The translations under genes were made by a program, and so were the position numbers. The notes under the pieces were generated by a model. It was not told the DNA's origin, did not search any database, and saw nothing but the letters and a program-made list of their open reading frames with translations. A DNA stretch of 46,897 nucleotides, taken from Planktothrix paucivesiculata PCC 9631. GTDB taxonomy: Bacteria > Cyanobacteriota > Cyanobacteriia > Cyanobacteriales > Microcoleaceae. Location: the NCBI RefSeq assembly GCF_900009265.2, contig NZ_LR735017.1:38095-84991 (forward strand), written 5' to 3'. Positions within the stretch are counted from its first letter, which is position 1; each line of letters begins with the position of its first letter. Positions 3,901-41,672 of this stretch are shown here, piece by piece.

Positions 3901-4822
3901 TAAAAAAAGCGTTATCGGCAATTGTAACAGTATTTAATAAAACAATATCCCCGGATTGTACGGGTTTTCCTTGACTTAAAACAATTTCTCCAGCTTGATT
4001 AATAGTAATATTTGTAGCTTCTTTTAAACCTGAACCCGTTAATAATTCTGGTAGAGATAAGGGCGGAATTACTGAATTTTCACTCTGACTTGAAGGAATA
4101 ATTTCTAAACTGAGTAGATAACCCGCTTGACTCATTCTAACTAAGTTTTCCCCGGGTACGGTTTGAACTAAAATTGTGCCACCTTGTAGGGAACCTTGAT
4201 TAATAATAGTTCCGGCTAGTAAGGTTAATTGTTGTTCTGTACCGACTTTTAATTCAGCTAAATTAATTACACTTCCAGGTTGAGAAGCATTAAAGACAAA
4301 GGCGTTAGGATTGCCCACAAGCTGACTCCAATCAGCATCTCCGACGGCATTAAACCAACTCGAATTAAAGCCAATACCATCGGCGGTTGTGGCTAAAAAA
4401 GACGCCGGAACATCTAAGCGGGCATGGGAACCAAAAATCATCCCCGCCGGATTCATTAAAAATAGATTAGAGTTGCCGCCCGTAACTTGAATTAATCCAT
4501 CAATAAAAGATGGACTTCCCCCATTAATTCGCCCTAAAATATTTTGAATATTGGGGGTAGAAATAAAATTAATAATTTGATTTTGGGGAACATTAAACTG
4601 TTGAAAACTATGGAATAAATTTGCCCCATCCCCCGATACTTTTCCCCCAGTAATATTAATCTGAACTGGGGAACTCCCTGGGACTGTTACGGGTGTAACA
4701 AAGGTTCCTGTATGATCATTTGCAGGAATAACGGATTGAGCTTTAACCAGAGAAGATCCTATCATCAACCCGGGACTGCTCAACAAGACAGAAATGAGAA
4801 AGGATGGGGATATTTTGGTCAT
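917..4822 (-). CDS. Secreted TPS-domain (filamentous haemagglutinin N-terminal) CHAT-protease fusion protein
   Basis: The 1301-residue protein starts with a signal peptide ([18 protein letters not shown]...VKAQS). A TPS secretion domain follows at residues ~30-270, with the NPAGMIFG variant of the family's NPNG motif. Next come beta-helix-like repeats rich in GGNITI/GNI segments, and a Pro/Thr linker with TPQPTAEP and 13 copies of TPIPTNIP. The C-terminal third is a CHAT (caspase-HetF-associated) peptidase domain with His1142 in HLATHADF and Cys1185 in [10 protein letters not shown], the expected catalytic dyad. The family architecture suggests export through a TpsB-type outer membrane pore, but none is encoded here. 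I chose the ATG at 4822; the frame also allows TTG at 4831. It starts 5 bases after the stop of the upstream cyclotransferase-like gene, so they are probably co-transcribed. The substrate is unknown. Confidence 0.88.
2444..2764. repeat. 24-bp tandem repeat (13 copies) coding the TPIPTNIP linker
   Basis: Read on the plus strand the unit is close to GGAATTGGTGTGGGAATATT plus four variable bases. Thirteen GAATATT cores occur at 24-base spacing. Variant copies are grouped (TAGTTGG, CGTGGG, CGTCGG types), as expected from slippage expansion. Four related 24-bp units coding TPQPTAEP-type repeats follow at about 2765-2860. There are no unique spacers, so this is not a CRISPR array. Confidence 0.92.
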
Positions 4823-4827
4823 AGGAA

Positions 4828-5226
4828 TCAACTGATTGGATTTGATTCTTTATACGCAGCCCAACCGCCAAAAGCAGAAATATCTGGCCATCGATAGTGT
4901 TCGACTAATTCCCGGGGATAGAGCATGGCGGTTAGGACTTCCCCATCTTCTAACTTGATATCCCCTGGATACATATTTGGAGGTTCGTTAATCAGTAAAT
5001 GTTCATACTGGGCCTGGGAAATTTCATAGACTTCTCCTGGGATAGAAATTCCGCCTTCTCCTATTTCATAAATCGCCGGATGCCAACCATTATCCGCCGC
5101 GTGTAAGCGATATAGGGGTAAGGTTTTAGCAGATTTAATCAATTTTGCTTCCCCTAAATTTTTATGATCTGGTTGACCCTGGAGGGCTGAACCACAAATA
5201 AAGATGCGTTTAGTTTTATCTGTCAT
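4828..5226 (-). CDS. Gamma-glutamylcyclotransferase-like (BtrG/allophanate-hydrolase C-terminal type) protein
   Basis: The 132-residue protein has the compact fold signature of the gamma-glutamylcyclotransferase superfamily: an N-terminal strand ending in CGSALQGQ (residues 11-17), and a central [18 protein letters not shown] segment (52-69). Close relatives form the C-terminal domain of allophanate hydrolases, and stand-alone versions are common in cyanobacteria. A divergent amidohydrolase that may act on ureido compounds lies next to it, which fits nitrogen metabolism, but the substrate cannot be read from the sequence. It ends 5 bases before the CHAT gene, which suggests translational coupling with that gene. 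Start ATG at 5226. Confidence 0.72.
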
Positions 5227-12989: not shown

Positions 12990-15422
12990 TTAAAAATCAT
13001 CATAATTTTCTTCATCGTGATCATCAGTTTCTATGAAATTCTCATTTTCATTGATTTCAATAAAATCAGCTTTTTTGTCTGATAAAGTAGCGGTTTTAGC
13101 TGTGGGTTTTTCTTCTAATTCAATGATTTTTCCTTGAAAAAAATCGACTAACGTTTGAGATGCGATCGCTACCGCTTGAGTATCTGCTTGTTCAGGACTT
13201 ATAGGAAGTGTTTCTACTTTTTCAATCGGTTTAAATGAATGATTATTAATCGTTTCAATTTGATTCTGTTTATTAATATTCTGATTTGGAGATTCAGAAA
13301 TTTGTTGTTGTTCTTGAGTATTAATTACAGGAGTTTGTACAACTTCAGGCGAATAAACCCTAGGATTTTCAACGGGGGGATAGGTGGGCGACGGGGGAGT
13401 TACGTCTTGAATTTGATTAACAGAATTTCCGCCTCCGGTATCAAAATTAATTTTAACAAAATGACCAAAAACCTGCTGAAAGGCTTTTTCTAAACTGGAT
13501 AATTTTTGTTTAGTTTGTGCCATTTTTAAGAGGTTTGGAGAAGCTATTTTAATCACAGCAACTTCAGAATTACACTTAGTTAAATGTCCAGTTTGACGAA
13601 ACATTTGTTGTGTTGAATAGGGTTCAATATAAGCCAATACCTGTTGCCAAATTTGATCTAAATTAGCATCAGTAACAATAGGTGCTTCTGCGGGAGTTGC
13701 GGGAATTTCTGCTTTAACTTGCGGTTGGGTTTGCGGTTGAGGTTCTGCGGTATAGGTGGGTTGAGGAGTGGGGGAATAAACAGGGTTTTGAGGTGGGTGT
13801 GAAGGTTCTGAACGTTGCACAAAGGGAATGGTTTCGGGTTGAGGTTGAACCGTTCTTTGAGGAGTTTGGGTAACAGTAACAGTTTGAGTTATAACAGATT
13901 TTTGTAACGCTGCTGGAAGTAACCCTAATAATATAATTTCTAACCATAAACGCGGTTGAGTTGAATGTTTAATTTGAGCTTCACTTTCGCGTAAATGTTT
14001 CTGACCTGCTAATATAATTGTACTATCCCAACGGTGGGAAAATTGACACAGTTTTTCCCAAGTTGGTTGGGTCAAAGCGACTAAATCAGAACGAGTTGAT
14101 GCCGTTTTAGCGATTAATAAATCTCGATAAAATCCGGCTAAATTTTGCAGAACAATTAAAGGTTCCCGTCCTCGGTTTAAGAGGTTACGAATACAGTCTA
14201 AAATAATAGCCGTATCCCCGGAATCAATAGCTTCTAATAAACTGATTAAGTCCCGTTCAGGAACCGCCCCCACTAAATCCCAGACTTTTTCAACGGTAAT
14301 TTCACCGGATAATAAACTGAGTTGGTCAAGTAAACTTTCAGCATCCCTTAACCCCCCCTGAGCAATTTGAGCCACCATAAAAACCGCATCATCAGCAATA
14401 TTAATATTTTCCTGTTGAGCAATATATTTTAAATGTTTGATCATCGAATCTAAGGGTATTCGCCGAAAATCAAACCGTTGACATCGAGAAATAATAGTAG
14501 GTAAAACCCGTTGAGGGTCAGTGGTTGCTAATACAAATACGACTCGATCTGGAGGTTCTTCTAAGGTTTTTAAGAGGGCATTAAACGCGGCGGTACTTAA
14601 CATATGACAGTTATGAACTAAAAGTCCATTAGCGACAAAGTTATGATGATCTTCTACTTCAATATCATAAACTTTAGCGATTTCTCCGGCTTGAACAGAT
14701 ACGACTGTTTCTAAACTTGTATTCCATTGAGTAAATGAAGGTTCCACACCCACATTCACAGGGGATAATATCTTCATTCCTTCTCTGACGTTTTTTGCTT
14801 CTATCCATCCTGTTTCTGTTCTTAATAAATGATTACCTGTACATCTAATTTCGCAATTATTTGTTTTAATAATCAGGGTGGAACGTTCTCCTTGATCTAA
14901 CCATCGAAGAACTTTTTTATATTCCCAAATTCCTTTATCTTCGTTATAACTTAAAACTTCTTTTCCTTTCAATTGGGGATTATCAATTCGGATGAGTCCT
15001 TCACGGGTCTGAACTAAACTATCTCCAGTTAAACATTCATCTATAACATATACTTTATACCGACATTGAACCGGGGCAAATTGCGATCGCTCAATTAATT
15101 CTCTAATATTATCAACCCCGGTATTACTGGCGGCGTCAATTTCAATAACATCCAAGGTTGAGCCATTGGTAATCCCTTTACAAATATCACAAACCCCGCA
15201 AGGAGTGGCCGTCGGAGTGGCATTTGCCGAACAATTCAGAGATTTGGCCAAAATTCTGGCACTCGAAGTTTTTCCCGTTCCCCTTGGCCCGGTAAATAGG
15301 TAAGCCGGGGCGATGCGTTGAGACTCGATCGCATTAGTGAGGGTGGTGGCGATCGCCTCTTGTCCGACCAAATGGGCAAAGGTTTGGGGACGGTATTTGT
15401 GGTGTAGGGGTTCGTAACTCAC
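12990..15422 (-). CDS. dnaX: DNA polymerase III subunit gamma/tau with an in-frame mini-intein
   Basis: The 810-residue precursor contains a 668-residue DnaX and a 142-residue intein. DnaX is the clamp-loader ATPase of the replicase. Visible motifs are Walker A GPRGTGKTS (45-53), a zinc module with Cys64, Cys75, Cys78 and Cys81, and Walker B VYVIDE (124-129), which is interrupted by the intein immediately after the Glu. After the intein the extein resumes at Cys272 with CHMLSTAAFNALLKTLEEPP. Domain III and a long Pro/Gln-rich linker follow, then a C-terminal region ending in an acidic tail. Start ATG at 15422. The ATPase site is split by the intein, so activity needs splicing. Confidence 0.96.
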   Translation of the reverse strand: MSYEPLHHKYRPQTFAHLVGQEAIATTLTNAIESQRIAPAYLFTGPRGTGKTSSARILAKSLNCSANATPTATPCGVCDICKGITNGSTLDVIEIDAASNTGVDNIRELIERSQFAPVQCRYKVYVIDECLTGDSLVQTREGLIRIDNPQLKGKEVLSYNEDKGIWEYKKVLRWLDQGERSTLIIKTNNCEIRCTGNHLLRTETGWIEAKNVREGMKILSPVNVGVEPSFTQWNTSLETVVSVQAGEIAKVYDIEVEDHHNFVANGLLVHNCHMLSTAAFNALLKTLEEPPDRVVFVLATTDPQRVLPTIISRCQRFDFRRIPLDSMIKHLKYIAQQENINIADDAVFMVAQIAQGGLRDAESLLDQLSLLSGEITVEKVWDLVGAVPERDLISLLEAIDSGDTAIILDCIRNLLNRGREPLIVLQNLAGFYRDLLIAKTASTRSDLVALTQPTWEKLCQFSHRWDSTIILAGQKHLRESEAQIKHSTQPRLWLEIILLGLLPAALQKSVITQTVTVTQTPQRTVQPQPETIPFVQRSEPSHPPQNPVYSPTPQPTYTAEPQPQTQPQVKAEIPATPAEAPIVTDANLDQIWQQVLAYIEPYSTQQMFRQTGHLTKCNSEVAVIKIASPNLLKMAQTKQKLSSLEKAFQQVFGHFVKINFDTGGGNSVNQIQDVTPPSPTYPPVENPRVYSPEVVQTPVINTQEQQQISESPNQNINKQNQIETINNHSFKPIEKVETLPISPEQADTQAVAIASQTLVDFFQGKIIELEEKPTAKTATLSDKKADFIEINENENFIETDDHDEENYDDF
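14610..15035 (-). mobile_element. DnaX mini-intein (142 residues, no homing endonuclease)
   Basis: The intein begins with Cys1 (CLTGDSLVQT, block A) and has block B at CTGNHLL with Thr66 and His69. It ends in block F and G, KVYDIEVEDHHNFVANG...LLVHN, with His141-Asn142 followed by the Cys +1 of the extein. About 50 residues lie between block B and block F, with no LAGLIDADG motifs, so the endonuclease domain is absent. All residues needed for standard Cys-type splicing are present. The insertion point lies between the Walker B Glu and CHML of DnaX, a position used by other cyanobacterial DnaX inteins. Confidence 0.95.
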
Positions 15423-29826: not shown

Positions 29827-31725
29827 TTAATTTTTCTTGATTACAAATACCCAATCTTGTTGGGTTGGAGGTTGCAGAGGAATTGAGTCTTTTCCCGTAA
29901 AATCAGGTAGTTGAGAAAATTCACCCAAACGGGGGTTATACAGTTGGATACGATAAGAACCTGTTGTTTCTGGCGGTAAAGATAGGGAGAGGGGTTTATT
30001 CGTGTCTCGAACATAAACAATATACTGTTGATTTTCGTTGCCTAAAACATAATGGGTTCCCTCTCCTTTAAGCCGTTTTTCTAGGGGTTTAAATTTCCAC
30101 CAATCTAAACTTTTAAACAGTTTAGGAAGTTGCTGAATTTGAGCTTCCCAATCCTGATTTTTAGGGTCATTTACATTAAATGGCCCCGGATCACGAATTC
30201 CTCCAAAATAAGTAGTTCCCCATCCGGTGACAAAATAGCCTCCGGCCATCACAATATCCCAAGTCGCATGGCGAATTTCATCTAAGGTGGCACTATTGGG
30301 TTTATCAACTTTTCCATCCTCATTCTGATCCCGTAAATAATAGGCATATTCAGAATTAACGACGGGTTTATTGTACTTGAGACTACCCAAAACCCGTTGA
30401 TGTAAGTTGGTATAACTCTGTTGATAATCTCCAAAAGACATCCAATCTTCTTGAGCAAAATCAGCGACACTATAACTTGTTTCCCCCGGATGAATGCCAA
30501 TTAATCGTTGATGGGGGTCAAATTTAACCATTTCTTGGGCAATGGTTTGATATAGGGCTTTATTGCCATATTCATTCCATTCTCCGGCAACGGTAAATGC
30601 CACATTAAAGGCACTATAACGAGCCATAATATAACGGGCATATCGGAGTCGAGCGTCCTGATTTGGGAAGGCTTTCCAATCATGTTGTGAGCCGCGATCT
30701 TGCGACCAACTCAAGAACAACATGGGTGTGATTCCTTTTTTATTTAAGTATTTAATTCGAGCGTCAACCTCCTGCCAATAAACGGGATTTAAGGTTTCGG
30801 CTGATAGATTTTCAAAGGCTAATCCTCCTTCATTTTTCCCCCTAGATAGGAGGTTAGAATGGATATAGTTAAACCCCTGTTTTGCCCGTTTATCAATATA
30901 TTGTTTAACAGAATTTCGATCTACTTTTTCTTCTGAAATATGATTATATAATGTCCAATGGGTATCTCCAAATAACCAAAAAGGTGTCCCATCTTCATAG
31001 ATGAAATGAGCAGGATATTTAGGGTTAACTTTAATACCGCCTTTGCTTTGGGCTGCCAGGGCTTTAAACGATCCAGATTGATTATTTAATCCGGGATCAT
31101 TAGATTGAACTGACCATTTCCAATTTCCTGCCATATTAGGAGAAAATCTCAATTTCCAGGTTTTCCCACCATCCCAAAATAAAGGAATAATTTGAGTTTC
31201 ACCTTTTGGAGTGGTAAAAGTTGCCGTGGCTTCAACTTCAGTATAGGGATTTTGATAATTTCCTGTATGAATAAAACCCTGTTCAAAAAGACTTAAAGCC
31301 GGGATTTGCCGTTGAGCAACGCTATTAACTTGTACGGTTACTTGATCCTGACTAGAATACTCTGCACCCGTCGCGGTCAACTCTAAAACATAGGTTCCGG
31401 GTTGAGAAAACTCTGCTTTTGTATTAGGATTTGTGGCGTTAGTAAAGCTAACACTGCCCGGGCCAGTCATTTTTTTCCATTGGGTTTTTAGATCTTTTGA
31501 ATTTCCTAAATAGGTCACATTTCCATAGAGTTGGACGGAGTTTTTCGGTGAAATAAATTGGGGAAATCCAGCACTCACGACCGGGGAATAATTAACAGGT
31601 TCTGGGATAACTTCTGGCTGAGAATTGGCTTCTGGAGTTGGGCGACAACCGAGGATTAAACTGACTAAAGTAGCATTCAAAATTATCCATTTCAGGATTG
31701 AGGGATTTTTAAGATGATTACTCAT
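29827..31725 (-). CDS. Lipoprotein glycoside hydrolase, apiosidase-like (DUF5060-DUF4038, GH140-type), with PKD-like domain
   Basis: The 632-residue protein has a lipobox at LILGC (Cys27), then a PKD/Ig-like domain (~45-135). A DUF5060 beta-sandwich follows (~140-225, ATATFTTPKGETQIIPLFWDGG), and then a (beta/alpha)8 domain of the DUF4038/apiosidase type (FWLFGDTHWTLYNHI). Two conserved glutamates appear in AGEWNEYG and VVNSEYAYY, positions expected for general acid and nucleophile in this fold. The substrate is unknown; GH140 members cleave apiose from pectic chains. It is the last gene of the minus-strand glycan cluster. AAGGA lies upstream of the ATG at 31725. Confidence 0.8.
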   Translation of the reverse strand: MSNHLKNPSILKWIILNATLVSLILGCRPTPEANSQPEVIPEPVNYSPVVSAGFPQFISPKNSVQLYGNVTYLGNSKDLKTQWKKMTGPGSVSFTNATNPNTKAEFSQPGTYVLELTATGAEYSSQDQVTVQVNSVAQRQIPALSLFEQGFIHTGNYQNPYTEVEATATFTTPKGETQIIPLFWDGGKTWKLRFSPNMAGNWKWSVQSNDPGLNNQSGSFKALAAQSKGGIKVNPKYPAHFIYEDGTPFWLFGDTHWTLYNHISEEKVDRNSVKQYIDKRAKQGFNYIHSNLLSRGKNEGGLAFENLSAETLNPVYWQEVDARIKYLNKKGITPMLFLSWSQDRGSQHDWKAFPNQDARLRYARYIMARYSAFNVAFTVAGEWNEYGNKALYQTIAQEMVKFDPHQRLIGIHPGETSYSVADFAQEDWMSFGDYQQSYTNLHQRVLGSLKYNKPVVNSEYAYYLRDQNEDGKVDKPNSATLDEIRHATWDIVMAGGYFVTGWGTTYFGGIRDPGPFNVNDPKNQDWEAQIQQLPKLFKSLDWWKFKPLEKRLKGEGTHYVLGNENQQYIVYVRDTNKPLSLSLPPETTGSYRIQLYNPRLGEFSQLPDFTGKDSIPLQPPTQQDWVFVIKKN

Positions 31726-31749
31726 GATAGTTATTCCTTTTTTAGTAAC

Positions 31750-32925
31750 TCAAAGGTTTTTAAAGGGAATTAAGAAATAATTCAAAATCGGAGTGAATTG
31801 AAGCATTATTTTAGAGGGTACTTTAGATTCATCAAATCTCTTTAATAAATCACTGGCTAAATAAATCGTGATCAGGGTTGTCCCTAAAAATAAAGATTCC
31901 GTTAGCAGGTCGGCGAGAAGGTTAGGAGTGTGGGGGAGAATATAATTTTTTATTTGCGGAAATAGACGGGTAAAGGGTTGATGGGTGAGGTAAATATAAT
32001 ATGACCAAACCCCGATAATACTGACGGTTTTAAACAGCATCGGAATCTTTTTCTGGGTAAAATCAGCCAGATTAACAATCCAAAGAATTATTCCTAAAGC
32101 AATCACAAAATCTGTAAAAATCCATCCCCACAATCCGATATAAAGTAGAAATTGTCCCCCCATCCAAATCAAAAAACCCAACCATCCCATATAAGAATTA
32201 ATGATGATTTGATTAAAACGATTACTATTTTTAGCTAGGACTAATCCCGCTACCATTCCTAGGGTAAATTCCCCGATTCTAGCCAGAATAAAACCAAAAG
32301 GTGATCGTTCTTGAAAGAAGCCAAAAAACCAGTCTGGATAACGATGCAGGGCGTGAACTGTTCCATGGAAAATCCCTAGAAATTTATCGCTATGGGCAAT
32401 GGGAAGTCCATCTAAATAATAAATAGCAATGCCTCGATAAATAAATTCTATCCCCAAGGTGATCGATAAAATTATTAAATATCCCCGCCAGGTTGAATAT
32501 TTTTGGAATCGATTATATAATATGGGAAAGAGTAAATAAGCTCCGACAATAAAGGGAACATACCAAAAAGCTCCGGTGGCTCGTCCACGAAAATCCTCGA
32601 AAACATTAGTCAGAAGAAAACAATCTAAAATAGTTCTAATAACAGCAAATTTTAAATTAGTTAAGTAGGCTAATAAGGGAAAGGAAAAAAGCACCGCTAC
32701 CCAGTACACAGGAAGAACCCGTTTCATCCGGCGAGTAAACCAATCCACCCAGGAAATTTTTTGACCTTGTTTAGCACAGGAATAGGCTAAACCAAAACCA
32801 CTTAAAACAATAAAAACATGGACACCCTGCCATCCAAACCAACCGCCCCGATAATGTACTAAAACCACAAGGGCGATCGCTAATCCTTTACAGAAATCTG
32901 TTAGGTTTAAAACATTCGGTTTCAT
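31750..32925 (-). CDS. Membrane acyltransferase (acyltransferase-3 / OatA-like family)
   Basis: The 391-residue protein has about ten membrane segments and the family motifs. These are DFCKGLAIALVVLVHYRG with the conserved His24, the FIVLSGFGLAYS loop, and RRMKRVLPVYW. Members transfer acetyl or other acyl groups to surface sugars or lipids. It lies 24 bases upstream of the GH-like gene, and 36 bases separate it from the alpha/beta hydrolase gene, so it is part of the same operon. The acceptor is likely the glycan made by the cluster, which is an inference. Confidence 0.88.
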   Translation of the reverse strand: MKPNVLNLTDFCKGLAIALVVLVHYRGGWFGWQGVHVFIVLSGFGLAYSCAKQGQKISWVDWFTRRMKRVLPVYWVAVLFSFPLLAYLTNLKFAVIRTILDCFLLTNVFEDFRGRATGAFWYVPFIVGAYLLFPILYNRFQKYSTWRGYLIILSITLGIEFIYRGIAIYYLDGLPIAHSDKFLGIFHGTVHALHRYPDWFFGFFQERSPFGFILARIGEFTLGMVAGLVLAKNSNRFNQIIINSYMGWLGFLIWMGGQFLLYIGLWGWIFTDFVIALGIILWIVNLADFTQKKIPMLFKTVSIIGVWSYYIYLTHQPFTRLFPQIKNYILPHTPNLLADLLTESLFLGTTLITIYLASDLLKRFDESKVPSKIMLQFTPILNYFLIPFKNL

Positions 32926-32961
32926 CTTGAATTAGTCCTGTTATTAAAATCAAAACTATTT

Positions 32962-33912
32962 CTAATCATTGATTTTTAACCAATTATCGACATAATTAAC
33001 AAAGGTTGAAATTGCTGTACCTTTAGCAAATCCTTTATTGAGAATTAACCCAGTATTCAAATAGTGATTCGCCTGGGGAATTGTCCAATACTCAACCGGG
33101 GGAACCATTTTTTGCGATAAATCCCTTAAAAAGGCTAAATCTTCAGGGGGTTCCAATTCCGCATCTAGGATTAATAACGGAATATGCCCGGGTTGAGCAA
33201 AATCTTCCAAATAAGTTTCTATATCCAATGCTACCATCACCGGTTCCCAAAAACCAAATTCTAGGGGTTTGGGCAACTGCATATCTATTTGCCAACGAAA
33301 CATTAATTTTTCTTTTTCCCGAGCTTCTGGGCTTAAAAAACGCTCTCTCAAACGACGGGGTGGGGAGAATACCACCGCTTTGGAAATCCGAGAATCTTGA
33401 GCTTGGGCGGCCATGGTTACACCCGCCCCAAAAGAATGTCCTAAGACATAAATCTGATTATTTTGACTAGGAAAATTAGTGCTTAAATAATCAATAGCGG
33501 CGGTTACATCCTGAGCAAAATTAAAAGATTCTGTTGTATAGTTTTTGGGTTGTTCAGATTCTCCATGGGCGCGAAGATCAAAAGCAAAAATCCGATATCC
33601 TAGATCTTTAAACCCCTCAGCTAAGGCGGGAATAATCGGTAATTTTCTGCCAAAAACTGAAGACCCATGGAGTAGAATAATTGTTGGGGCAGTTTCGGAA
33701 TTTTCCGGCAAATATAAATCCCCTTTTAACTGTAATCCATCAGCTAGAAAAGATACGGTTTTTGAGGGTTGATAAGGAATAGATTGTAATTGTTTAAAAG
33801 AGGATTGTTTTAACAGATCGAGTTGATGATAACGGTATCTCAACAGATTGTATAAGGGTTTAACTTGGGGATAGGTTTGAGCGAGAAGGGGGTATAACTT
33901 GGGTTTTGCCAT
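32962..33912 (-). CDS. Alpha/beta hydrolase
   Basis: The 316-residue protein is a serine hydrolase. The nucleophile elbow GHSFGAG has Ser160. LHGSSVFGRK is the oxyanion-hole strand, and FDLRAHGESEQP is a typical loop. An Asp in LILDAELEPPEDLAFL and a His in PQANHYLNTG complete a plausible triad. The N-terminal ~50 residues are an extra helical segment. In the cluster it could remove or exchange acyl groups, but the substrate is unknown. Start ATG at 33912. Confidence 0.85.
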   Translation of the reverse strand: MAKPKLYPLLAQTYPQVKPLYNLLRYRYHQLDLLKQSSFKQLQSIPYQPSKTVSFLADGLQLKGDLYLPENSETAPTIILLHGSSVFGRKLPIIPALAEGFKDLGYRIFAFDLRAHGESEQPKNYTTESFNFAQDVTAAIDYLSTNFPSQNNQIYVLGHSFGAGVTMAAQAQDSRISKAVVFSPPRRLRERFLSPEAREKEKLMFRWQIDMQLPKPLEFGFWEPVMVALDIETYLEDFAQPGHIPLLILDAELEPPEDLAFLRDLSQKMVPPVEYWTIPQANHYLNTGLILNKGFAKGTAISTFVNYVDNWLKIND

Positions 33913-33932
33913 GATGATTTTAAAGGGGGATT

Positions 33933-34706
33933 TTAAAGGGTTTTCGTATCGGTTCTCATTTTAATAATTTTAGCAGGAACACCCGCAGCGATCGCATAAT
34001 CAGGTAAATCTTTGGTTACGACTGCCCCGGCTCCAATAATACAGCCTTTGCCGATTTTAACCCCATCTAAAACAACGGCACTCGCTCCCAACCAAACATC
34101 ATCTTGAATCGTAATTTTTCCCCGGGTAAAAACTCCCTGTTCCATCATGGGAATATCCAAACGGTCTGTAATATATCGCCCGCCTCCAATATAACAATTT
34201 CCAGCAATTAAAACCGAATTACCAATGGAAATTCCCCCGCTAGAAGATAGAATGGTATTACAGCCTAAATCGGTTTTTTTACCAATAGAAATTCCGCCAA
34301 TTTTCCCTTGAATTACACAATTTCGAGAAATAATCACATCATCATCTAAAAATATGCCCGCCTCTCCCGCCCCACTGGCATCGATTAAAACATAATCATC
34401 AATAGCAACTCGGTTTCCTAAAGTTACTTTTTTAGGATGACGTAATACAATCCCTTTGCCTAAAATTATCCCTGCACCTGTGCTTTTGAATAACCCTTTA
34501 TAAGCAGATTTCCGAGTAACATATCCTAAAGCACCGGATAAATTACCAAAGAAAAAATTAGCTAATTCATATTGAATAAAATGCCCTAAATTATCTGTTC
34601 CTAATGCTTTGGTTTGATAACGTTTTAACAAAGAAGACTCAGCTTGATTGAGTTGTTCAGACAGAGAAACTTTGTTAATAATTTGGCGATTTTCAGTTTC
34701 ATTCAT
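33933..34706 (-). CDS. Hexapeptide-repeat acyltransferase (WbbJ-like)
   Basis: The 257-residue protein has a long left-handed beta-helix of hexapeptide repeats (VTLGNRVAIDDYVLIDASG, GGISIGKKTDLGCNTILSS, VWLGASAVVLDGVKIGKG) and ends in AAGVPAKIIKMR. These enzymes usually move acetyl groups from acetyl-CoA to sugars. An N-terminal ~70-residue helical domain precedes the helix. It lies between the alpha/beta hydrolase (20 bases) and the epimerase (47 bases) on the same strand, consistent with a surface-glycan operon. Confidence 0.87.
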   Translation of the reverse strand: MNETENRQIINKVSLSEQLNQAESSLLKRYQTKALGTDNLGHFIQYELANFFFGNLSGALGYVTRKSAYKGLFKSTGAGIILGKGIVLRHPKKVTLGNRVAIDDYVLIDASGAGEAGIFLDDDVIISRNCVIQGKIGGISIGKKTDLGCNTILSSSGGISIGNSVLIAGNCYIGGGRYITDRLDIPMMEQGVFTRGKITIQDDVWLGASAVVLDGVKIGKGCIIGAGAVVTKDLPDYAIAAGVPAKIIKMRTDTKTL

Positions 34707-34753
34707 AAATTTAAAGGTGGGCTATGCCCACCTAAATAAAGGGTTTAAAATAG

Positions 34754-35761
34754 TTAGGATTTGAGAGCGGATGACGCTTCTAATAACCCGGAATCTTTAT
34801 ACCAAAGGGCGGTTTTTTTCAAGCCTTCATCTAGGGGAACTTTGGGTTGATACCCTAATAATCTTTGAGCTTTAGAAATATCAAAAGCCCGGTCTTTAAT
34901 AAAGAAATCCACCCGACGGCGATAAATAGGCGGAGAAATTTTCAAAGGTAAACAAATCAGTTCGCATAAATAACCCGCCCACCACACGGGCCACACGGGA
35001 ATTTTAAACTTAGAAACGGGTTTATTATAGATATCAGCAATTTTTTGAACCAGTTGATTTAAGGTGACAAATTCATTGCCCCCAATGGTAAAGATTTCAC
35101 CGATAGCAGCTTCTTTTTCCCCGGCCAAGGCAATACCCGCCGCCAAATCTTCTACATAGGTCAAATGATAGAGAACTTCCCCACTACCGATCATTTTAAA
35201 CTTGCCCGAATAGATATATTTAAACAGTTTCAGAAACCGTAAATCTCCAGGGCCATAAATTCCCACGGGACGAACTACACAACCCGCTAAATTTTCCTTT
35301 TTGAAAAAATCTAATGCTAAAAGTTCTCCTTCCATCTTAGATTCTTGATAATAGTCTCCTGGTGAATAGGGGTCTTCTTCCTTTGCAGGCGGGTTTTTAA
35401 TTTCTCCTTGAACTCCCACGGTGCTGCAATGAACAAATCGTTTCACATTGGCTTTTTTTGCCGCTTCTAAAACCTTGCGAGTTCCTTTAACATTAACATC
35501 CCAAAAATATTCTCTGGGGACATTTTCGGCTCGATATAACGCCGCAATATGATAAACAATCTCTACCCCAGCCATCACCGAATCTTCTAGGGGGTTATCA
35601 TCAGCAATATCGGCAAAGGCATATTCAATAGGTAATCCTTCTAGGGTACTTTGATTGGAATTTTTACGGACTAATACCCGCACTTCATAGCCTTTATCGA
35701 GTAAGTGTTTGGTTAAATAACTGCCCGTAAATCCGTTAGCACCTGTCACTAAAACTTTCAT
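34754..35761 (-). CDS. NAD-dependent epimerase/dehydratase
   Basis: The 335-residue extended short-chain dehydrogenase has the nucleotide-binding TGANGFTG (6-13) at the N-terminus. The catalytic Tyr-x3-Lys is in PGDYYQESKMEGE, with the Ser/Thr partner in VHCSTVG. The family covers sugar-nucleotide epimerases and dihydroflavonol-reductase/HpnA-like enzymes, so the exact substrate is open. I chose the ATG at 35761 (MKVLVTGANG), which has GGAG about 9 bases upstream; the open frame runs back to 35776. It sits in the minus-strand cluster. Confidence 0.88.
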   Translation of the reverse strand: MKVLVTGANGFTGSYLTKHLLDKGYEVRVLVRKNSNQSTLEGLPIEYAFADIADDNPLEDSVMAGVEIVYHIAALYRAENVPREYFWDVNVKGTRKVLEAAKKANVKRFVHCSTVGVQGEIKNPPAKEEDPYSPGDYYQESKMEGELLALDFFKKENLAGCVVRPVGIYGPGDLRFLKLFKYIYSGKFKMIGSGEVLYHLTYVEDLAAGIALAGEKEAAIGEIFTIGGNEFVTLNQLVQKIADIYNKPVSKFKIPVWPVWWAGYLCELICLPLKISPPIYRRRVDFFIKDRAFDISKAQRLLGYQPKVPLDEGLKKTALWYKDSGLLEASSALKS

Positions 35762-35813
35762 AAAAACTTGCTCCAATTAATGATACGAAAAAATAGATTT
35801 TATGGCTCAAATT

Positions 35814-37343
35814 TTAGCTTTTAATGGTTAATTCCTCCATACCACAGGTCTGATAAAAACATTCTAAACGTTGAATTTCTTGTTTAGATTTTTGGTCATC
35901 CCAGTTAAACAGTTGACAAACCAAGGGAGCAATTTTTAAAGCTCGTTTGGGATTATCTCCTAAGCTAGTCCGACGCAAGATTAAATCATCTAAATGTTGT
36001 ACGGCTTCATTTTCAATGATATCTTGTAGTTCGGTTTTCCAGTCGGATAATTCGGGCTGGGGATACCAATGATAATCATACAATCCCTGGGGACGTTGGG
36101 CTTCTGGTGGGGCAGTTTCTGTTGGATTGACAGATGGAAAGTTAGGGAAAATTTGCTGAATTGTCTTTTCGGCCACCAGACGGGCTGTGGTAAATTTGAC
36201 CCCAGAAACACTATATAATCCTTTAATTCCTTGATTCAGGGTTTGATGATTTAAAATAACTTCCCTGACCGCCAGTTCATTACTATCAGGTTTTTCCCCA
36301 GGGAGTAAACCGGAAAACACCCGAATAATTTCGGTTTTACTTAAATTTAACCCCGGAATAGCGAGATTGAGATTATCAATAAATTCGCTAATTTCTGAGG
36401 GTTCAGGGTTAGGGTTAACTTTAATTTCTTTGAACCAGGGATTATGAATGGTTCCCGCTAAAAGTCGCCCTTTCCAGGGATGGAGAAAATAGGTTTGAGC
36501 ATTGGGTTTTTTGGGTTCTACGGCTAGGGCGAAATCCGATAAGGTTTCTCGATCAAATAGGATATTCCACGCGATAGATTTATAGAATAAATTAGGAACA
36601 TCTTGATCAAATTTAGCTGCTAATTCTCGACACCAAGGCCCAGCAGCATTCACAACAATTTTAGCTTGAAATTCCTGGGTTTCTCCGGTGATTTTATCTT
36701 CAGCTAGAACACCGGAAACCGTTTGATTGACCTTTAATATTTCTTTGGCTTCTACATAGTTTAAAGCCGTTGCGCCCAAGGAACAAGCCCAGCGTAGAAT
36801 CCCGATCACTAATCTTTGGGAATCGGGCATACAGGCATCATGCCAAATGGCTCCCCCGGTTAATCCTTGGGGATCTACAGTGGGAAAATGGGTTTTTACC
36901 TGTTCGGATTTAATCACTTCTCCGGGGGGTAAATGGCGGTCTGGACGAATACCCTGGTTACGATTAATTGATAGGGCATCGTTGAGTTTTAAAGCCGTAT
37001 AAAGAATCGGGGGGCGGCGGATTCCTTTGTTATATAAAGGCATTAAACAGGAGAGGGGTTTTACTAATTCTGGGAAGGTTTTTAGAAACCATTTGCGTTC
37101 CCCTACGGATTCATAAAACCGCTCTAAATCGAGGTTTTGTAAATAGCGAAATCCCCCGTGGACAATGCGGAGACTATTATAACTGGTGGCTCCCCCAAAA
37201 TCAGCTTTTTCTATTAATAGCGATCGCAAATTTCGCCGGGAGGCTTCTAAGGAAAGCATTACCCCATAAATTCCTCCTCCGATAATAATTACATCATAGG
37301 AAGATTGGGCGGCGGTGGCTGGATTTCGGTTAATTTTGGTCAT
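35814..37343 (-). CDS. FAD-dependent glycerol-3-phosphate dehydrogenase family protein (GlpD-like)
   Basis: The 509-residue flavoprotein has the FAD-binding GGGIYG (22-27), the GlpD signature SYNSLRIVHGGFRYLQ, and GPWCRELAAKF in the middle. Its C-terminal part keeps a GlpD-like helical domain. GlpD enzymes oxidise glycerol-3-phosphate to dihydroxyacetone phosphate. Its place between an AsnB-type and an epimerase gene suggests a role in glycan or glycerol-linked polymer synthesis rather than glycerol catabolism, which is an inference. Start ATG at 37343. Confidence 0.86.
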   Translation of the reverse strand: MTKINRNPATAAQSSYDVIIIGGGIYGVMLSLEASRRNLRSLLIEKADFGGATSYNSLRIVHGGFRYLQNLDLERFYESVGERKWFLKTFPELVKPLSCLMPLYNKGIRRPPILYTALKLNDALSINRNQGIRPDRHLPPGEVIKSEQVKTHFPTVDPQGLTGGAIWHDACMPDSQRLVIGILRWACSLGATALNYVEAKEILKVNQTVSGVLAEDKITGETQEFQAKIVVNAAGPWCRELAAKFDQDVPNLFYKSIAWNILFDRETLSDFALAVEPKKPNAQTYFLHPWKGRLLAGTIHNPWFKEIKVNPNPEPSEISEFIDNLNLAIPGLNLSKTEIIRVFSGLLPGEKPDSNELAVREVILNHQTLNQGIKGLYSVSGVKFTTARLVAEKTIQQIFPNFPSVNPTETAPPEAQRPQGLYDYHWYPQPELSDWKTELQDIIENEAVQHLDDLILRRTSLGDNPKRALKIAPLVCQLFNWDDQKSKQEIQRLECFYQTCGMEELTIKS

Positions 37344-37390
37344 GGCTAATAGAGGGTTTACGACTAAATTTCAATAAAAACTAGATAAGT

Positions 37391-39268
37391 TTATTCTCCT
37401 TTGAACCAACGTTTATACCAACTTTGAAACACAATTAATGACCATAAAATATGGCTATGGTTAGCTGTTCCGGCTAGATGTTCTTCCTTCAGTCGCTTAA
37501 TAGTATTGACCTGGAAAATTCCCTGCTCTCGAATGGCTTGATCGCTGAGTAATTCTTCCATTAACGGCCGAAATTCATTACACAGCCAGTTTTTAATCGG
37601 AATACTAAATCCTTCTTTTGGTCGATATACACATTCCGGGGGAACATAACGGGCAGCGATGGATTTTAACAGAACTTTTGTTTCACCATTTGCTAATTTT
37701 AACCGATCGGGAATTTGAAAGGCTAATTCGACCAAATCAGGGTCAAGATAGGGAACTCTTGACTCTAGGGAAACGGCCATAGACATTCGATCCACTTTCA
37801 CTAAAATGTCATCGCTTAAATAGCTTTTGACATCGACATACATACTCCGGTTTTGGGGTTGACGATCGCCTGCTTTATTGAATAAATCAATAATATGGGA
37901 TGCCGAGGATGTGACTAATTCTTGATTTGCTTCGGGGGTAAATAATTGCGATCGCACGGCATCTCCGGCAAAAATTCGCCAACGGGCATGGGATAAATCC
38001 ACCGGATTTTCTAACCCTTCAATGAACCTTTTACCCTTATTAACTAAGCCTTTTTTCTCCGGGCGAGGGCGCAAAGAATTAATTAAAGGTTCGACTAAAT
38101 TCTTTCGGAAAATAGCCGGAATTTTATAATATTGTTCGGCTTTTTCATTAGCTAAATAGGTTTCATAGCCTCCAAATAGTTCATCGCCCCCATCGCCACT
38201 CAAGGAAACCGTTACATATTTTCGAGCTAATTGGGAGACTAAAAACGTAGGAAAAATTGAAAAATCCCCAATGGGATCATCTAGGAAATACATTAAATGC
38301 TCAAATAATTCTACCACGTTGGGCTTAATCACTTCATTGATATGTTCAACCCCTAAATGGGAGGCAACTTTTTCCGACCATTTCAACTCATTGTAGGAGG
38401 GATCATCAAAGCCAATACTATAGGTTTGTGCCTTCCCCATTAAAGCAACGGTCAGGGAAGAATCGACACCTCCTGATAGAAATGCACCCAAAGGAACATC
38501 ACTCACCAGTTGCATGGTTACGGATTTTCTGAGTTGAGCTTCAACTTTATCAGCCCATTCTTGATCGGATAATTCTATTTCACCCGTAGCCGGAATATCC
38601 CAATAGGTTTGGGGCTGACATTGGGGATTTTCTAAGTCAATTTCTAACATTTGTCCGGGTTCTAATTGCCGGATTTCTTTAAATAGGGTAGCTTTACCCG
38701 GAACATATTCCCAGGCTAAATATTCCCCTAACGCATCAAGATCTAAGGTCTTTTTAACCAGTCCACTAGCGAGAATGGCTTTAATTTCCGAACCCCAAAC
38801 TAAATAGTTTTGATCAAAGGAATAATAGAGAGGTTTAATTCCTAAATGATCTCGCACTAAATACAGTTTTTTCTTAACCGTATCATGGAGGGCGATCGCA
38901 AACATTCCATTTAGGTATTTAGGAAAGTCTAGCCCATATTCTTCGTAAGCATAAACAATTACTTCCGTATCGGTTTTTGTGGCGAAAGTATAGCCTTTGG
39001 CTTCGAGTTCACTACGGAGTTCTCGAAAGTTATAAATTTCCCCATTAAAAACCGTTAAAATCGTGCGATCTTGATTAAAAATCGGTTGTCGTCCGCCACT
39101 TAAATCGATGATTGATAATCGTCGCATTCCCAATGCAACCCCGTCTTGAACGTGCATTCCATCTTGGTCTGGCCCCCGATGGAAGATGCTATCACACATG
39201 GTTTTTAACTGTTCCAAGGTGGGATGAGGTGAGCCATTCAAAGCCGCGACGCCTGTTATTCCACACAT
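37391..39268 (-). CDS. asnB: Asparagine synthetase B-type glutamine amidotransferase
   Basis: The 625-residue protein has an N-terminal glutaminase domain with Cys2 (MCGITGV), FNGEIYN and RGPDQDG. A C-terminal synthetase domain follows with the PP-loop SGGVDSS (265-271). It is complete and of normal length. Classic AsnB makes asparagine from aspartate; paralogues inside polysaccharide clusters are thought to amidate uronic acids or act on peptides. The context here (glycosyltransferase, acyltransferases) favours the second role, but this is an inference. Start ATG at 39268. Confidence 0.9.
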   Translation of the reverse strand: MCGITGVAALNGSPHPTLEQLKTMCDSIFHRGPDQDGMHVQDGVALGMRRLSIIDLSGGRQPIFNQDRTILTVFNGEIYNFRELRSELEAKGYTFATKTDTEVIVYAYEEYGLDFPKYLNGMFAIALHDTVKKKLYLVRDHLGIKPLYYSFDQNYLVWGSEIKAILASGLVKKTLDLDALGEYLAWEYVPGKATLFKEIRQLEPGQMLEIDLENPQCQPQTYWDIPATGEIELSDQEWADKVEAQLRKSVTMQLVSDVPLGAFLSGGVDSSLTVALMGKAQTYSIGFDDPSYNELKWSEKVASHLGVEHINEVIKPNVVELFEHLMYFLDDPIGDFSIFPTFLVSQLARKYVTVSLSGDGGDELFGGYETYLANEKAEQYYKIPAIFRKNLVEPLINSLRPRPEKKGLVNKGKRFIEGLENPVDLSHARWRIFAGDAVRSQLFTPEANQELVTSSASHIIDLFNKAGDRQPQNRSMYVDVKSYLSDDILVKVDRMSMAVSLESRVPYLDPDLVELAFQIPDRLKLANGETKVLLKSIAARYVPPECVYRPKEGFSIPIKNWLCNEFRPLMEELLSDQAIREQGIFQVNTIKRLKEEHLAGTANHSHILWSLIVFQSWYKRWFKGE

Positions 39269-39373
39269 CGAATTTAATCCCCCAACGGAAGGTGTTTAAA
39301 ACTTAGGAATTAGCCCCTAAGTTGGTTCTATTTTAATTAAAAAAAATGGCTTCGGCAAGTTTTTGAGTCAGAA

Positions 39374-39487
39374 AAAACCGGGTTTCTTAACATTTAATCT
39401 GGATTTCAACCCTAAAATCATGAGAAACCGGGTTTCTTAACATTTAATCGGGATTTCCAACCTAAAATCATGAGAAACCCGGTTTCT
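39374..39487. repeat. 50-bp direct repeats built on GAAACCGGGTTTC palindromes
   Basis: GGTTTCTTAA occurs at 39381 and 39431, and the palindrome returns in inverted form at 39474-39487, giving a 50-base period. The two full units differ at a few positions. The palindromes can pair with each other and lie between the glycosyltransferase C-half gene and asnB. This GAAACCGGGTTTCT element looks like a dispersed cyanobacterial repeat. Confidence 0.85.
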
Positions 39488-39494
39488 GGTCTGG

Positions 39495-40166
39495 TTAGCT
39501 TGATTTCAAATTCAAGGAATTAGAAGACTGATTTTGAGAGGACTCTGAACCTGGAGACCTTTTAATGGGAGTGCTAGTCACAAACTCCAATAAATTAATC
39601 ATTTTTTGGGTATAAACTTCACGAGAATATTTTTCTTGATACAGCAGTTGAGCATTTTTAGCTTTTTGTTGGGCTTCAGTTTCATTGCTTAATGCTTCGA
39701 TAATTCCCCGGGCTAAATCTTCCGGTTCGGGCTCCACTAAGAAAGCTACATTATCATCTAAAACCTGGGTATGGGAATAGATTCGAGTCGCTACTAAGGG
39801 AACCCCACTGGCTAATTGTTGATAAACTTTTAGGGGGGTATTAGTGCCACTGCGACGGGGCGAAACTTGAACTTTCGCGCGGTTAGCGTAATTTTGAGCT
39901 AAGGATTGTTCTACCCGACCGGTTAATAAACATTGTTGACTAATACCAGATTCTTCTGCCAAATTGGAGAAAAATTGAGTTTGTTCTGGACTGCCACCCA
40001 CGATTAATAAAAAGGCTTGGGGATCAGATTTAGCGACGGAAACAAAGGCTTGAATTAGAATATCAATCCCTTGATAGGATTCTAACGTTCCAGCATAAAC
40101 AACTAAATTTTTATCAAAAATACTTGCGGGAACTCCTGACTTTTTTTCTCCATTAGATTCACTCAT
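39495..40166 (-). CDS. GT-B glycosyltransferase, C-terminal (donor-binding) half
   Basis: The 223-residue protein is the C-terminal half of a GT4-family glycosyltransferase, which binds the nucleotide-sugar donor. It starts with MSESNGEKKSGVPASIFDKN, then the first strand VVYAGTLESYQGIDILIQAF, LLIVGGSP, and SPRRSGTNTPLKVYQQLASG with the family's Glu-less variant of the EX7E region. It ends in a Ser/Asn-rich tail. CAGGAG lies about 10 bases before the ATG at 40166, so it is translated on its own. The acceptor-binding half is the separate gene just upstream. The two would reconstitute one enzyme if they associate. Confidence 0.85.
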   Translation of the reverse strand: MSESNGEKKSGVPASIFDKNLVVYAGTLESYQGIDILIQAFVSVAKSDPQAFLLIVGGSPEQTQFFSNLAEESGISQQCLLTGRVEQSLAQNYANRAKVQVSPRRSGTNTPLKVYQQLASGVPLVATRIYSHTQVLDDNVAFLVEPEPEDLARGIIEALSNETEAQQKAKNAQLLYQEKYSREVYTQKMINLLEFVTSTPIKRSPGSESSQNQSSNSLNLKSS

Positions 40167-40222
40167 AGCACTTGATCTCCTGATAATTAACCTAACAATT
40201 TAGAGGGATAAATCTATAGAGT
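40167..40222. other. Linker break between the two glycosyltransferase halves
   Basis: The 56-base spacer contains the ribosome-binding site of the downstream half and a stop codon in that half's frame about 12 codons upstream of its ATG. The halves are in different frames, so a single point change would not rejoin them. Confidence 0.7.
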
Positions 40223-40816
40223 TTAAGTGGTTTTTTGAACTACTTTCACTTCATCAAAAATGGAATTTTCAATTAAGAAAACTTTTTGTTTGTCCCCAAT
40301 GATTCCTAGGGCATAGTTATATAAACTCGGACATATTGTAATGGTGGCATCTGAAGTATGCAAACAAGCATCTTCCATAGTTTTAAACAGATCAATTAAC
40401 CATTGAGAGGTGGTAAATCGAAAGTTTGTTAACTGTTCGGGAAGACTGGAGTGCATATCATAAATCAGACGAAATTTAAAAATCGGTTTAAACAACGCAC
40501 AAACAAAAATGGCTTCTTCATGGGCGTGAACAAAATCATAGCGATTTTTGAGCAATAAAGCGATCGTCCACAGGGTAATGAAAATATCTAAAAATAACTT
40601 CAGTTTTGAAGGGCCAATTTTAACATTACCGAACATGGGAAAGCTAGGAATTCTAATAATTCTTACCCCAGGAATGTCGATATCTTCACCTTCACCATAG
40701 GTAAGTAAATCAATATCTACCCCTAATTCAGCCGTAATTAATGTGCGGTAATACACACTAAAAGGTGTGCCGCGTGGGGTGTAAAAGGGTTGGGGAGAAA
40801 TCACTAATGCTTTCAT
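40223..40816 (-). CDS. GT-B glycosyltransferase, N-terminal (acceptor-binding) half
   Basis: The 197-residue protein is the N-terminal Rossmann-like domain of a GT4 glycosyltransferase: MKALVISPQPFYTPRGTPFS, FVHAHEEAIF, RLIYDMHSSLPEQL and ATITICPSLYNYALG. It ends soon after VFLIENSIFDEV, exactly where the linker to the donor-binding domain begins in complete GT4 enzymes. The partner half is encoded 56 bases downstream in another frame. Alone it should lack donor binding. It follows the PHP-like gene by 4 bases. Confidence 0.85.
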   Translation of the reverse strand: MKALVISPQPFYTPRGTPFSVYYRTLITAELGVDIDLLTYGEGEDIDIPGVRIIRIPSFPMFGNVKIGPSKLKLFLDIFITLWTIALLLKNRYDFVHAHEEAIFVCALFKPIFKFRLIYDMHSSLPEQLTNFRFTTSQWLIDLFKTMEDACLHTSDATITICPSLYNYALGIIGDKQKVFLIENSIFDEVKVVQKTT

Positions 40817-40820
40817 AATT

Positions 40821-41672
40821 TTATCCTTTTTTTCTCATGCGTTTAACCACTTGCATTGCAATTTGATTGCGAATAAAACGCAGGGGGGTTTCCTGGGTTC
40901 CATAGCTTTGCAATTGAGTATTAGGATCTAATAAAATTTGCTTAATACTGTAGCCTGGTTTGTTCGGATCAATAGTGCCTTGCAGGGCAAATCCAAAACT
41001 TCCAGGCCGCCAAGATTCGGAAGCAAAAGGTAGGGGATCGGTTCCGGGTAAAATTTTGAATCCCTTGGCTTGGGCTTGTTTAAAATAAATCGGTTGACTC
41101 CAAAAGGTGGGACGACCTCCGTTGTCACCCAGGAACAAAGGAAAGGATTCTTTTTGTTCTAATAAACGGTTAATAATTGTGCCCCGTTCCCCCATCCATT
41201 TCCCGAAACCCCAAGGAAGAACGGGAATACCGCCGTTAGAAATAACTTGTTGAATAGTGGTTTCAATGGGTAAACCTTCGGCAAATTCTTCGGCAGTTAA
41301 TAGGGCGAGAACTTCTAAATTTTCAGCCGTGACAATTTGACGACCCGCAAATATAAAAATACCCTGTCCCGTTGAATGTTTGGCGTAGACAGAGCAGTTT
41401 TCTTCCGTTTTAAACAGATTCCAATTTTTTAAACTTGGGTCAGAATTTTCGTCTTTCTGAGTCAAATGAATCAGTTTCTGGAAATAATGATCCTGGGAAG
41501 TTTCTGTTAAAAACATCAGGGCTGTTTCTGCTTGCGAATAACCGGATTTTTTAGCGGTGGCATTAAAATTTTTTAATGCTGCATCCAAAAATTCCTCTAG
41601 GTCATAGCAGTCATAAATATGAACGTGAGCGTCAGCCCAAATCCTTGAGTTTGGATGAGTTGAAGTTACCAT
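40821..41672 (-). CDS. PHP/amidohydrolase-like protein of the glycan cluster
   Basis: The 283-residue protein has an N-terminal WADAHVHIYDCYDLEEF motif that resembles the HxH metal site of PHP or amidohydrolase folds. Further candidate ligands are a His in NCSVYAKHSTG and conserved Gly/Asp segments (FLGDNGGRP, LPGTDPLPF). The family is not clear and the catalytic set is incomplete compared with classical PHP domains. It is the first gene of the minus-strand cluster and lies 4 bases upstream of the glycosyltransferase N-half gene. The start is the ATG at 41672. Confidence 0.65.
   Translation of the reverse strand: MVTSTHPNSRIWADAHVHIYDCYDLEEFLDAALKNFNATAKKSGYSQAETALMFLTETSQDHYFQKLIHLTQKDENSDPSLKNWNLFKTEENCSVYAKHSTGQGIFIFAGRQIVTAENLEVLALLTAEEFAEGLPIETTIQQVISNGGIPVLPWGFGKWMGERGTIINRLLEQKESFPLFLGDNGGRPTFWSQPIYFKQAQAKGFKILPGTDPLPFASESWRPGSFGFALQGTIDPNKPGYSIKQILLDPNTQLQSYGTQETPLRFIRNQIAMQVVKRMRKKG

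Follow-up and report, generated by a model that had tools for sequence, protein, structure and literature searches.

Does a glycosyltransferase gene that breaks off at its middle and resumes in a second reading frame represent a damaged gene, or two genes for the subunits of one enzyme? The question is raised by a locus in a 46,897-nt stretch of DNA from Planktothrix paucivesiculata PCC 9631 (NZ_LR735017.1, positions 38,095-84,991 of the forward strand; GCF_900009265.2), hereafter the window, whose source is a filamentous cyanobacterium with a genome of 6.15 Mb (G000). Two adjacent open reading frames lie there on the minus strand: an N-terminal half gene at 40223..40816 (197 aa; ATG at 40816, TAA at 40225-40223) and a C-terminal half gene at 39495..40166 (223 aa; ATG at 40166-40164, stop ending at 39495), separated by a spacer of 56 bp (40167..40222, minus strand) that varies in length and sequence among relatives. 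A first-pass annotation had proposed that these genes encode the N- and C-terminal halves of one GT4/GT-B enzyme, and the open reading frames and Pfam matches bear this out. The N-half matched PF13439 (E = 1.4e-9, 38.7 bits) and PF13579 (E = 1.9e-8, 35.3 bits), the C-half matched PF00534 (E = 7.4e-26, 91.2 bits) and PF13692 (E = 4.2e-21, 76.1 bits), each exceeding its curated cut-off, and these N- and C-domain models place both halves with the GT4 or group 1 glycosyl transferases. By analogy, the N-half would supply the acceptor-side Rossmann domain and the C-half the nucleotide-sugar side. PF00534 matches 30 places in the genome, and the window locus is the sole one in an open frame shorter than 350 codons (234; next shortest 357).

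The break had been placed between the blocks IENSIFDEV and VVYAGTLE, and this is where it lies: the N-half ends 7 residues beyond the former and the C-half starts 21 residues ahead of the latter. The downstream half also has, as had been claimed, a ribosome-binding site of its own, the Shine-Dalgarno sequence AGGAG at 40177..40181 (minus strand; CTCCT on the plus strand), 10 nt upstream of the C-half ATG. That the halves lie in different frames with an intervening stop holds for the window but not as a general trait, as the halves share a frame, with stops between them, in G008 and G002. This shared frame would suit synthesis of a single chain through stop read-through or programmed frameshifting; however, in the window the C frame is closed by a stop between the N-half stop and the C-half ATG, and the two halves do not keep a constant frame relation from genome to genome (192 or 186 nt between fixed anchors, against 194 nt), and we regard production of a single chain as extremely improbable. 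A split-intein gene pair was likewise rejected, the N-half having a tail of only 7 residues and no intein domain being found at E <= 0.001.

In aligned fused relatives, a linker that varies in both length and sequence separates an IENS- or PDIS-type block from a Y-x-G-T/N-L/F-E block, and the cut falls within this inter-domain linker. The full-length structure model was made for a fused relative, L069, rather than for the window pair. With a 52-row alignment, AlphaFold gave a pLDDT of 93.8 and a pTM of 0.91, and the sole stretch below 50 comprised residues 198-206; on the same numbering, counted on alignments, the window N-half stops near residue 197 and the C-half starts a few residues further on. 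Modelled by itself, the C-half gave a confidently predicted domain (pLDDT 92.8). Foldseek matched the L069 model to MshA, BshA, PimA and HepE among solved structures; over the 50 matches listed, identity ranged from 12 to 21%. The L069 model, its Foldseek matches and the C-half model agree on a GT4 enzyme of GT-B fold with two Rossmann domains.

The same arrangement was found beyond the window. Five of the ten genus genomes (G000-G009) carry the adjacent split pair (G000, G002, G005, G007 and G008); all five keep the TAA, the AGGAG and the ATG, while the spacer (48-56 nt) and the frame vary. The G005 assembly is 73% complete and has ambiguous bases within both halves, with the junction intact. 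A cyanobacterium of another family, G210, whose alignment row equals the one from 'Filamentous cyanobacterium CCP2', has the gene order PHP, N, C, AsnB as in the window, with its own, longer spacer; AGGAG is absent before its C-half, where several candidate starts occur. Both halves are under purifying selection: among four genus species (G005 left out, and comparisons with G210 excluded as mostly saturated), pairwise dN/dS was 0.03-0.07 for the N-half and 0.18-0.22 for the C-half, with 0.14-0.23 for the upstream PHP-like gene. Within the genus the C domain evolves faster than the N domain (ratio 1.9-3.2), but fused window-type pairs also show ratios of 1.0-2.9, and because these ranges overlap, the idea that fission relaxed selection on the C-half is unsupported.

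These observations bear on the reading of the locus as a sequencing error, or as a recent frameshift or pseudogene of a single gene. Fused relatives are common outside cyanobacteria and decay does occur in a second subfamily (the G026 remnant described below), both of which would fit such an origin; against it stand the purifying selection on both halves, the conserved AGGAG and ATG within the genus spacer of 48-56 bp and, decisively, the recurrence of the arrangement in five genus genomes and in G210, independent assemblies that refute it, so that its probability is close to nil. An intact single ORF in close relatives had been named as the finding that would speak against a two-subunit enzyme. 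G003 and G006 do carry single-ORF genes at the chromosomal site of the window pair, but their domains are 30-32% (N) and 39-42% (C) identical to the window's; they belong to another subfamily and are therefore not an intact allele of the pair. The comparison with related genomes recommended in the first-pass annotation thus yielded conserved separate genes with the same break, in half of the genus genomes and in G210. Together with the purifying selection and a tree in which the split forms a clade nested among fused genes, this conservation supports the two-subunit reading over a simple frameshift.

Whether the two products still form one active enzyme is a further question, on which the GT4 EX7E motif bears. 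In this region the subfamily reads SPR..G.N.P.K, and the first motif position is Thr in the window-type split sequences. The second Glu is replaced by Gln in the four genus sequences (C-half Q116 in KVYQQLASG; window 39819-39821, minus strand), and donor chemistry may therefore differ. G210 has Glu at this position; of 54 fused window-type sequences, 29 have Glu and 18 have Ser, and Ser occurs in all 11 second-subfamily split sequences; the remaining motif residues are kept in both halves. The Gln could mark a pair that assembles as a regulatory or inactive pseudo-enzyme, but the strong constraint on the N-half and the variability of the same position in fused relatives make this quite improbable. 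Somewhat less remote, though still unlikely, is that the halves no longer constitute one enzyme, with one or both acting separately or with a different partner. The faster evolution of the C-half in the genus and the Glu-to-Gln change at the donor-site position would be in keeping with separate roles; the retained motif residues in both halves argue against them, as do the position of C directly after N in 23 of 23 split sequences collected (some representing the same genome twice) and the correlation of N with C distances (r = 0.974 for 5 window-type split sequences and 0.955 for 10 second-subfamily ones, with 0.817 for 58 fused sequences).

Named genomes were scanned with an N-domain alignment of 13 rows, which identified 247 relatives, and the best 80 of the 247 loci were examined. 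One of them (L121) lacks a C part and could not be scored; among the other 79, 8 were split and 71 fused. All 8 split loci come from records titled as cyanobacteria and none of the 71 fused loci does, so that among the best 80 of 247 loci fission is restricted to cyanobacteria, with phyla taken from record titles, several of them metagenome bins, and with no phylum named in the titles of fused L133 and L139. Five fused loci (L093, L100, L117, L126 and L128) run off a contig end, and L100 was scored as fused although it has no C match at the threshold used for collecting sequences. The nearest fused sequences among the best 80 of 247, from records titled as Nitrospirota-, Ignavibacteria-, Proteobacteria- and Desulfobacterota-like, are up to 73% (N domain) and 62% (C domain) identical to the window's, with values of 73% and 60% for L069. 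The earlier statement that natural bipartite GT-B enzymes are rare needs qualifying, as splits of this kind were counted in 17 genomes and two subfamilies, cyanobacteria throughout.

The second subfamily has N domains 27-35% identical to the window's; in the cyanobacterial loci examined, a gene for a GlpD-like FAD oxidoreductase follows the glycosyltransferase. This subfamily is split at the same linker in 11 cyanobacterial genomes (G058, G102, G136, G213, G220, G266, G271, G276, G278, G292 and G396); fused copies occur in G417, in G157 and, within the window's own family, in 9 of 61 genomes. Of 388 genomes drawn from the class, 16 matched at E <= 1e-20, comprising 13 split copies, 2 fused copies and 1 distant copy in a long frame. 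Some split copies are embedded in long contigs, of 4.5 Mb in G271 and of 8.2 Mb in Leptolyngbya sp. PCC 7375, and a Shine-Dalgarno-like tetramer precedes a plausible C-half start in 4 of the 11 genomes (G276, G396, G213 and G292). One locus, L038 (G026:C713), is an interrupted remnant of the single-chain type, in which the end of the N domain and the C domain lie in two pieces with a TAA between them. In G005, a second-subfamily copy beside TilS (G005:C206, L024) contains internal runs of N that hide its split or fused state; the presence of this copy as well in G005 possibly reflects mixed strains in the assembly.

An IQ-TREE tree was built from 75 of 105 collected sequences, 25 named and 5 identical ones being omitted; L124 is represented by the second relative in its locus. 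The five window-type split sequences form one clade (100/99), nested among fused sequences from records of other phyla, and a branch supported at 100/98 parts this clade from the second subfamily. The split or fused state requires four changes on the tree, at least three of which are forced by the starred branches, and a single change sufficed in 0 of 200 bootstrap trees. One origin for all splits, with all split sequences held together, was rejected (AU p = 2.6e-79), which argues for at least two independent fissions. The ancestral enzyme would accordingly be placed as a single chain, the form it still has in records of many other phyla. Within the second subfamily, the fused sequence of G157 lies inside the split clade, joined to its neighbour G102 at 100/97. 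A single clade of second-subfamily splits without G157 was rejected (p = 1.2e-4) and one with G157 inside was not (p = 0.43), and G157 for this reason probably represents a re-fusion. A second such event could underlie the fused clade in the window's family, but the branch on which this depends has weak support (86/38). Trees of the N domain and of the C domain each recovered the window-type split as one group; for the second-subfamily splits, the N tree required 3 changes and the C tree 5. Over both subfamilies, the C-domain tree alone required 6 changes, against 4 in the N-domain and joint trees, and the number of events is therefore unsure. Among the fused sequences, L170 (G460) differs from L015 by 27% in the N domain and by only 13% in the C domain, unlike other close fused pairs, possibly owing to domain exchange or to an alignment artefact.

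The genes around the pair, all on the minus strand, suggest a pathway context. Ending 4 bp before the N-half, a gene of 283 aa at 40821..41672 encodes what we take, from an ADAHVHIYD motif, to be a PHP-like metal-dependent hydrolase; it has no Pfam match. Beyond the C-half follow an asparagine-synthase-like amidotransferase at 37391..39268, which exceeds the TIGR01536 cut-off and has its best match, below cut-off, to the XrtA/PEP-CTERM system model TIGR03108; an FAD-dependent oxidoreductase resembling glycerol-3-phosphate dehydrogenase at 35814..37343 (G3P models below cut-off); an NAD-dependent epimerase/dehydratase at 34754..35776, HpnA-like below cut-off; and a hexapeptide-repeat acyltransferase at 33933..34706. 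Among the best 80 of 247 loci, many of which end at contig ends, relatives were found near the glycosyltransferase in 42 (hydrolase), 38 (amidotransferase), 46 (oxidoreductase), 52 (epimerase) and 10 (acyltransferase), and similar neighbours recur around both split and fused forms. The cassette looks like a single glycan pathway. At the genus site beside TilS (window 29827-41672; loci L177-L180), one of two alternative cassettes is present: PHP, split glycosyltransferase, AsnB, FAD oxidoreductase and epimerase in the window, G008 and G002, or the second-subfamily set of single-chain glycosyltransferase, FAD oxidoreductase, PHP and epimerase in G006 and G003. The locus is polymorphic and probably serves the making of a glycan. 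Near-palindromic short repeats resembling gaaaccgggtttct lie between the C-half and AsnB (window ~39370-39495). Elsewhere in the window, the gene for DnaX (DNA polymerase III tau/gamma; 12990-15422, minus strand) contains an in-frame intein (PF14890 Intein_splicing, E = 5.5e-11, residues 151-271), and an ORF at 917-4831 (minus strand) encodes a large protein with a tandem PTPIPTNI repeat, presumably a secreted protein of filamentous-haemagglutinin/CHAT type.

We consider it likely, at a probability of roughly 0.8, that the window pair is a bipartite GT4-type glycosyltransferase of GT-B fold made of two docking chains. In cyanobacteria, an ancestral single-chain enzyme would have been severed within the disordered linker between its domains, leaving separate adjacent genes, each with its own start and probably co-transcribed, the C-half being translated, in the genus, from a good ribosome-binding site of its own. 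The N and C subunits would fold on their own and dock non-covalently, rebuilding the active-site cleft, and the docked pair would then add one sugar within a pathway that includes the PHP-like hydrolase, the AsnB-like amidotransferase, the G3P-dehydrogenase-like FAD enzyme, the epimerase and the acyltransferase. More tentative, and in our view rather doubtful, is the idea that cyanobacteria repeatedly selected the two-chain form, two subfamilies at equivalent places in similar cassettes, which alternate at one chromosomal site in the genus, having been cut independently at the same linker. If true, separate donor and acceptor subunits would provide something that a single chain does not, such as control of stoichiometry, regulation or exchange of partners. 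At least two independent fissions would amount to a natural replicate, and a GT4 split with fairly close single-chain homologues such as L069 would allow the effects of fission on stability, specificity and regulation to be compared side by side.

As a kind, the split GT-B enzyme is already known, with natural cases documented in the MurG-like Alg13/Alg14-EpsE/EpsF group. The window pair resembles Alg13/Alg14, EpsE/EpsF and rhizobial PssD/PssE in consisting of two adjacent genes, each for one Rossmann half of one GT-B enzyme. Those systems are MurG-like, whereas the window halves match GT4/group 1 models; MurG-like domains, which we take to be those named Alg14 (N) and Glyco_tran_28 (C), were not found in the window halves, where only GT4/group 1 models matched at E <= 0.001. 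The listings of a literature search showed no description of a GT4 enzyme that is split, or of such fission recurring within a single phylum. MshA, BshA, PimA, HepE and sucrose-phosphate synthase are alike in fold and sequence profile, but each is one polypeptide. In the portion of the source available, pssD and pssE are said to encode 'halves' of one glycosyltransferase (PMC9961541). An engineered split of the plant enzymes UGT74B1 and UGT74C1, a precedent for the docking proposed here, was likewise cut in the linker, although artificially; the accessible part of that report describes co-expressed domains of which two of four pairs were readily purified as dimers, a chimeric dimer being active, and cites Alg13/Alg14 as the natural example (PMC10937113). 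Alg13/Alg14 and EpsE/EpsF are described, in the part available of a further source, as natural GT-B enzymes that are mostly split, with later re-fusions, and a single split event is inferred there for their clade (PMC8993221), in contrast to the at least two independent splits to which the trees point here.
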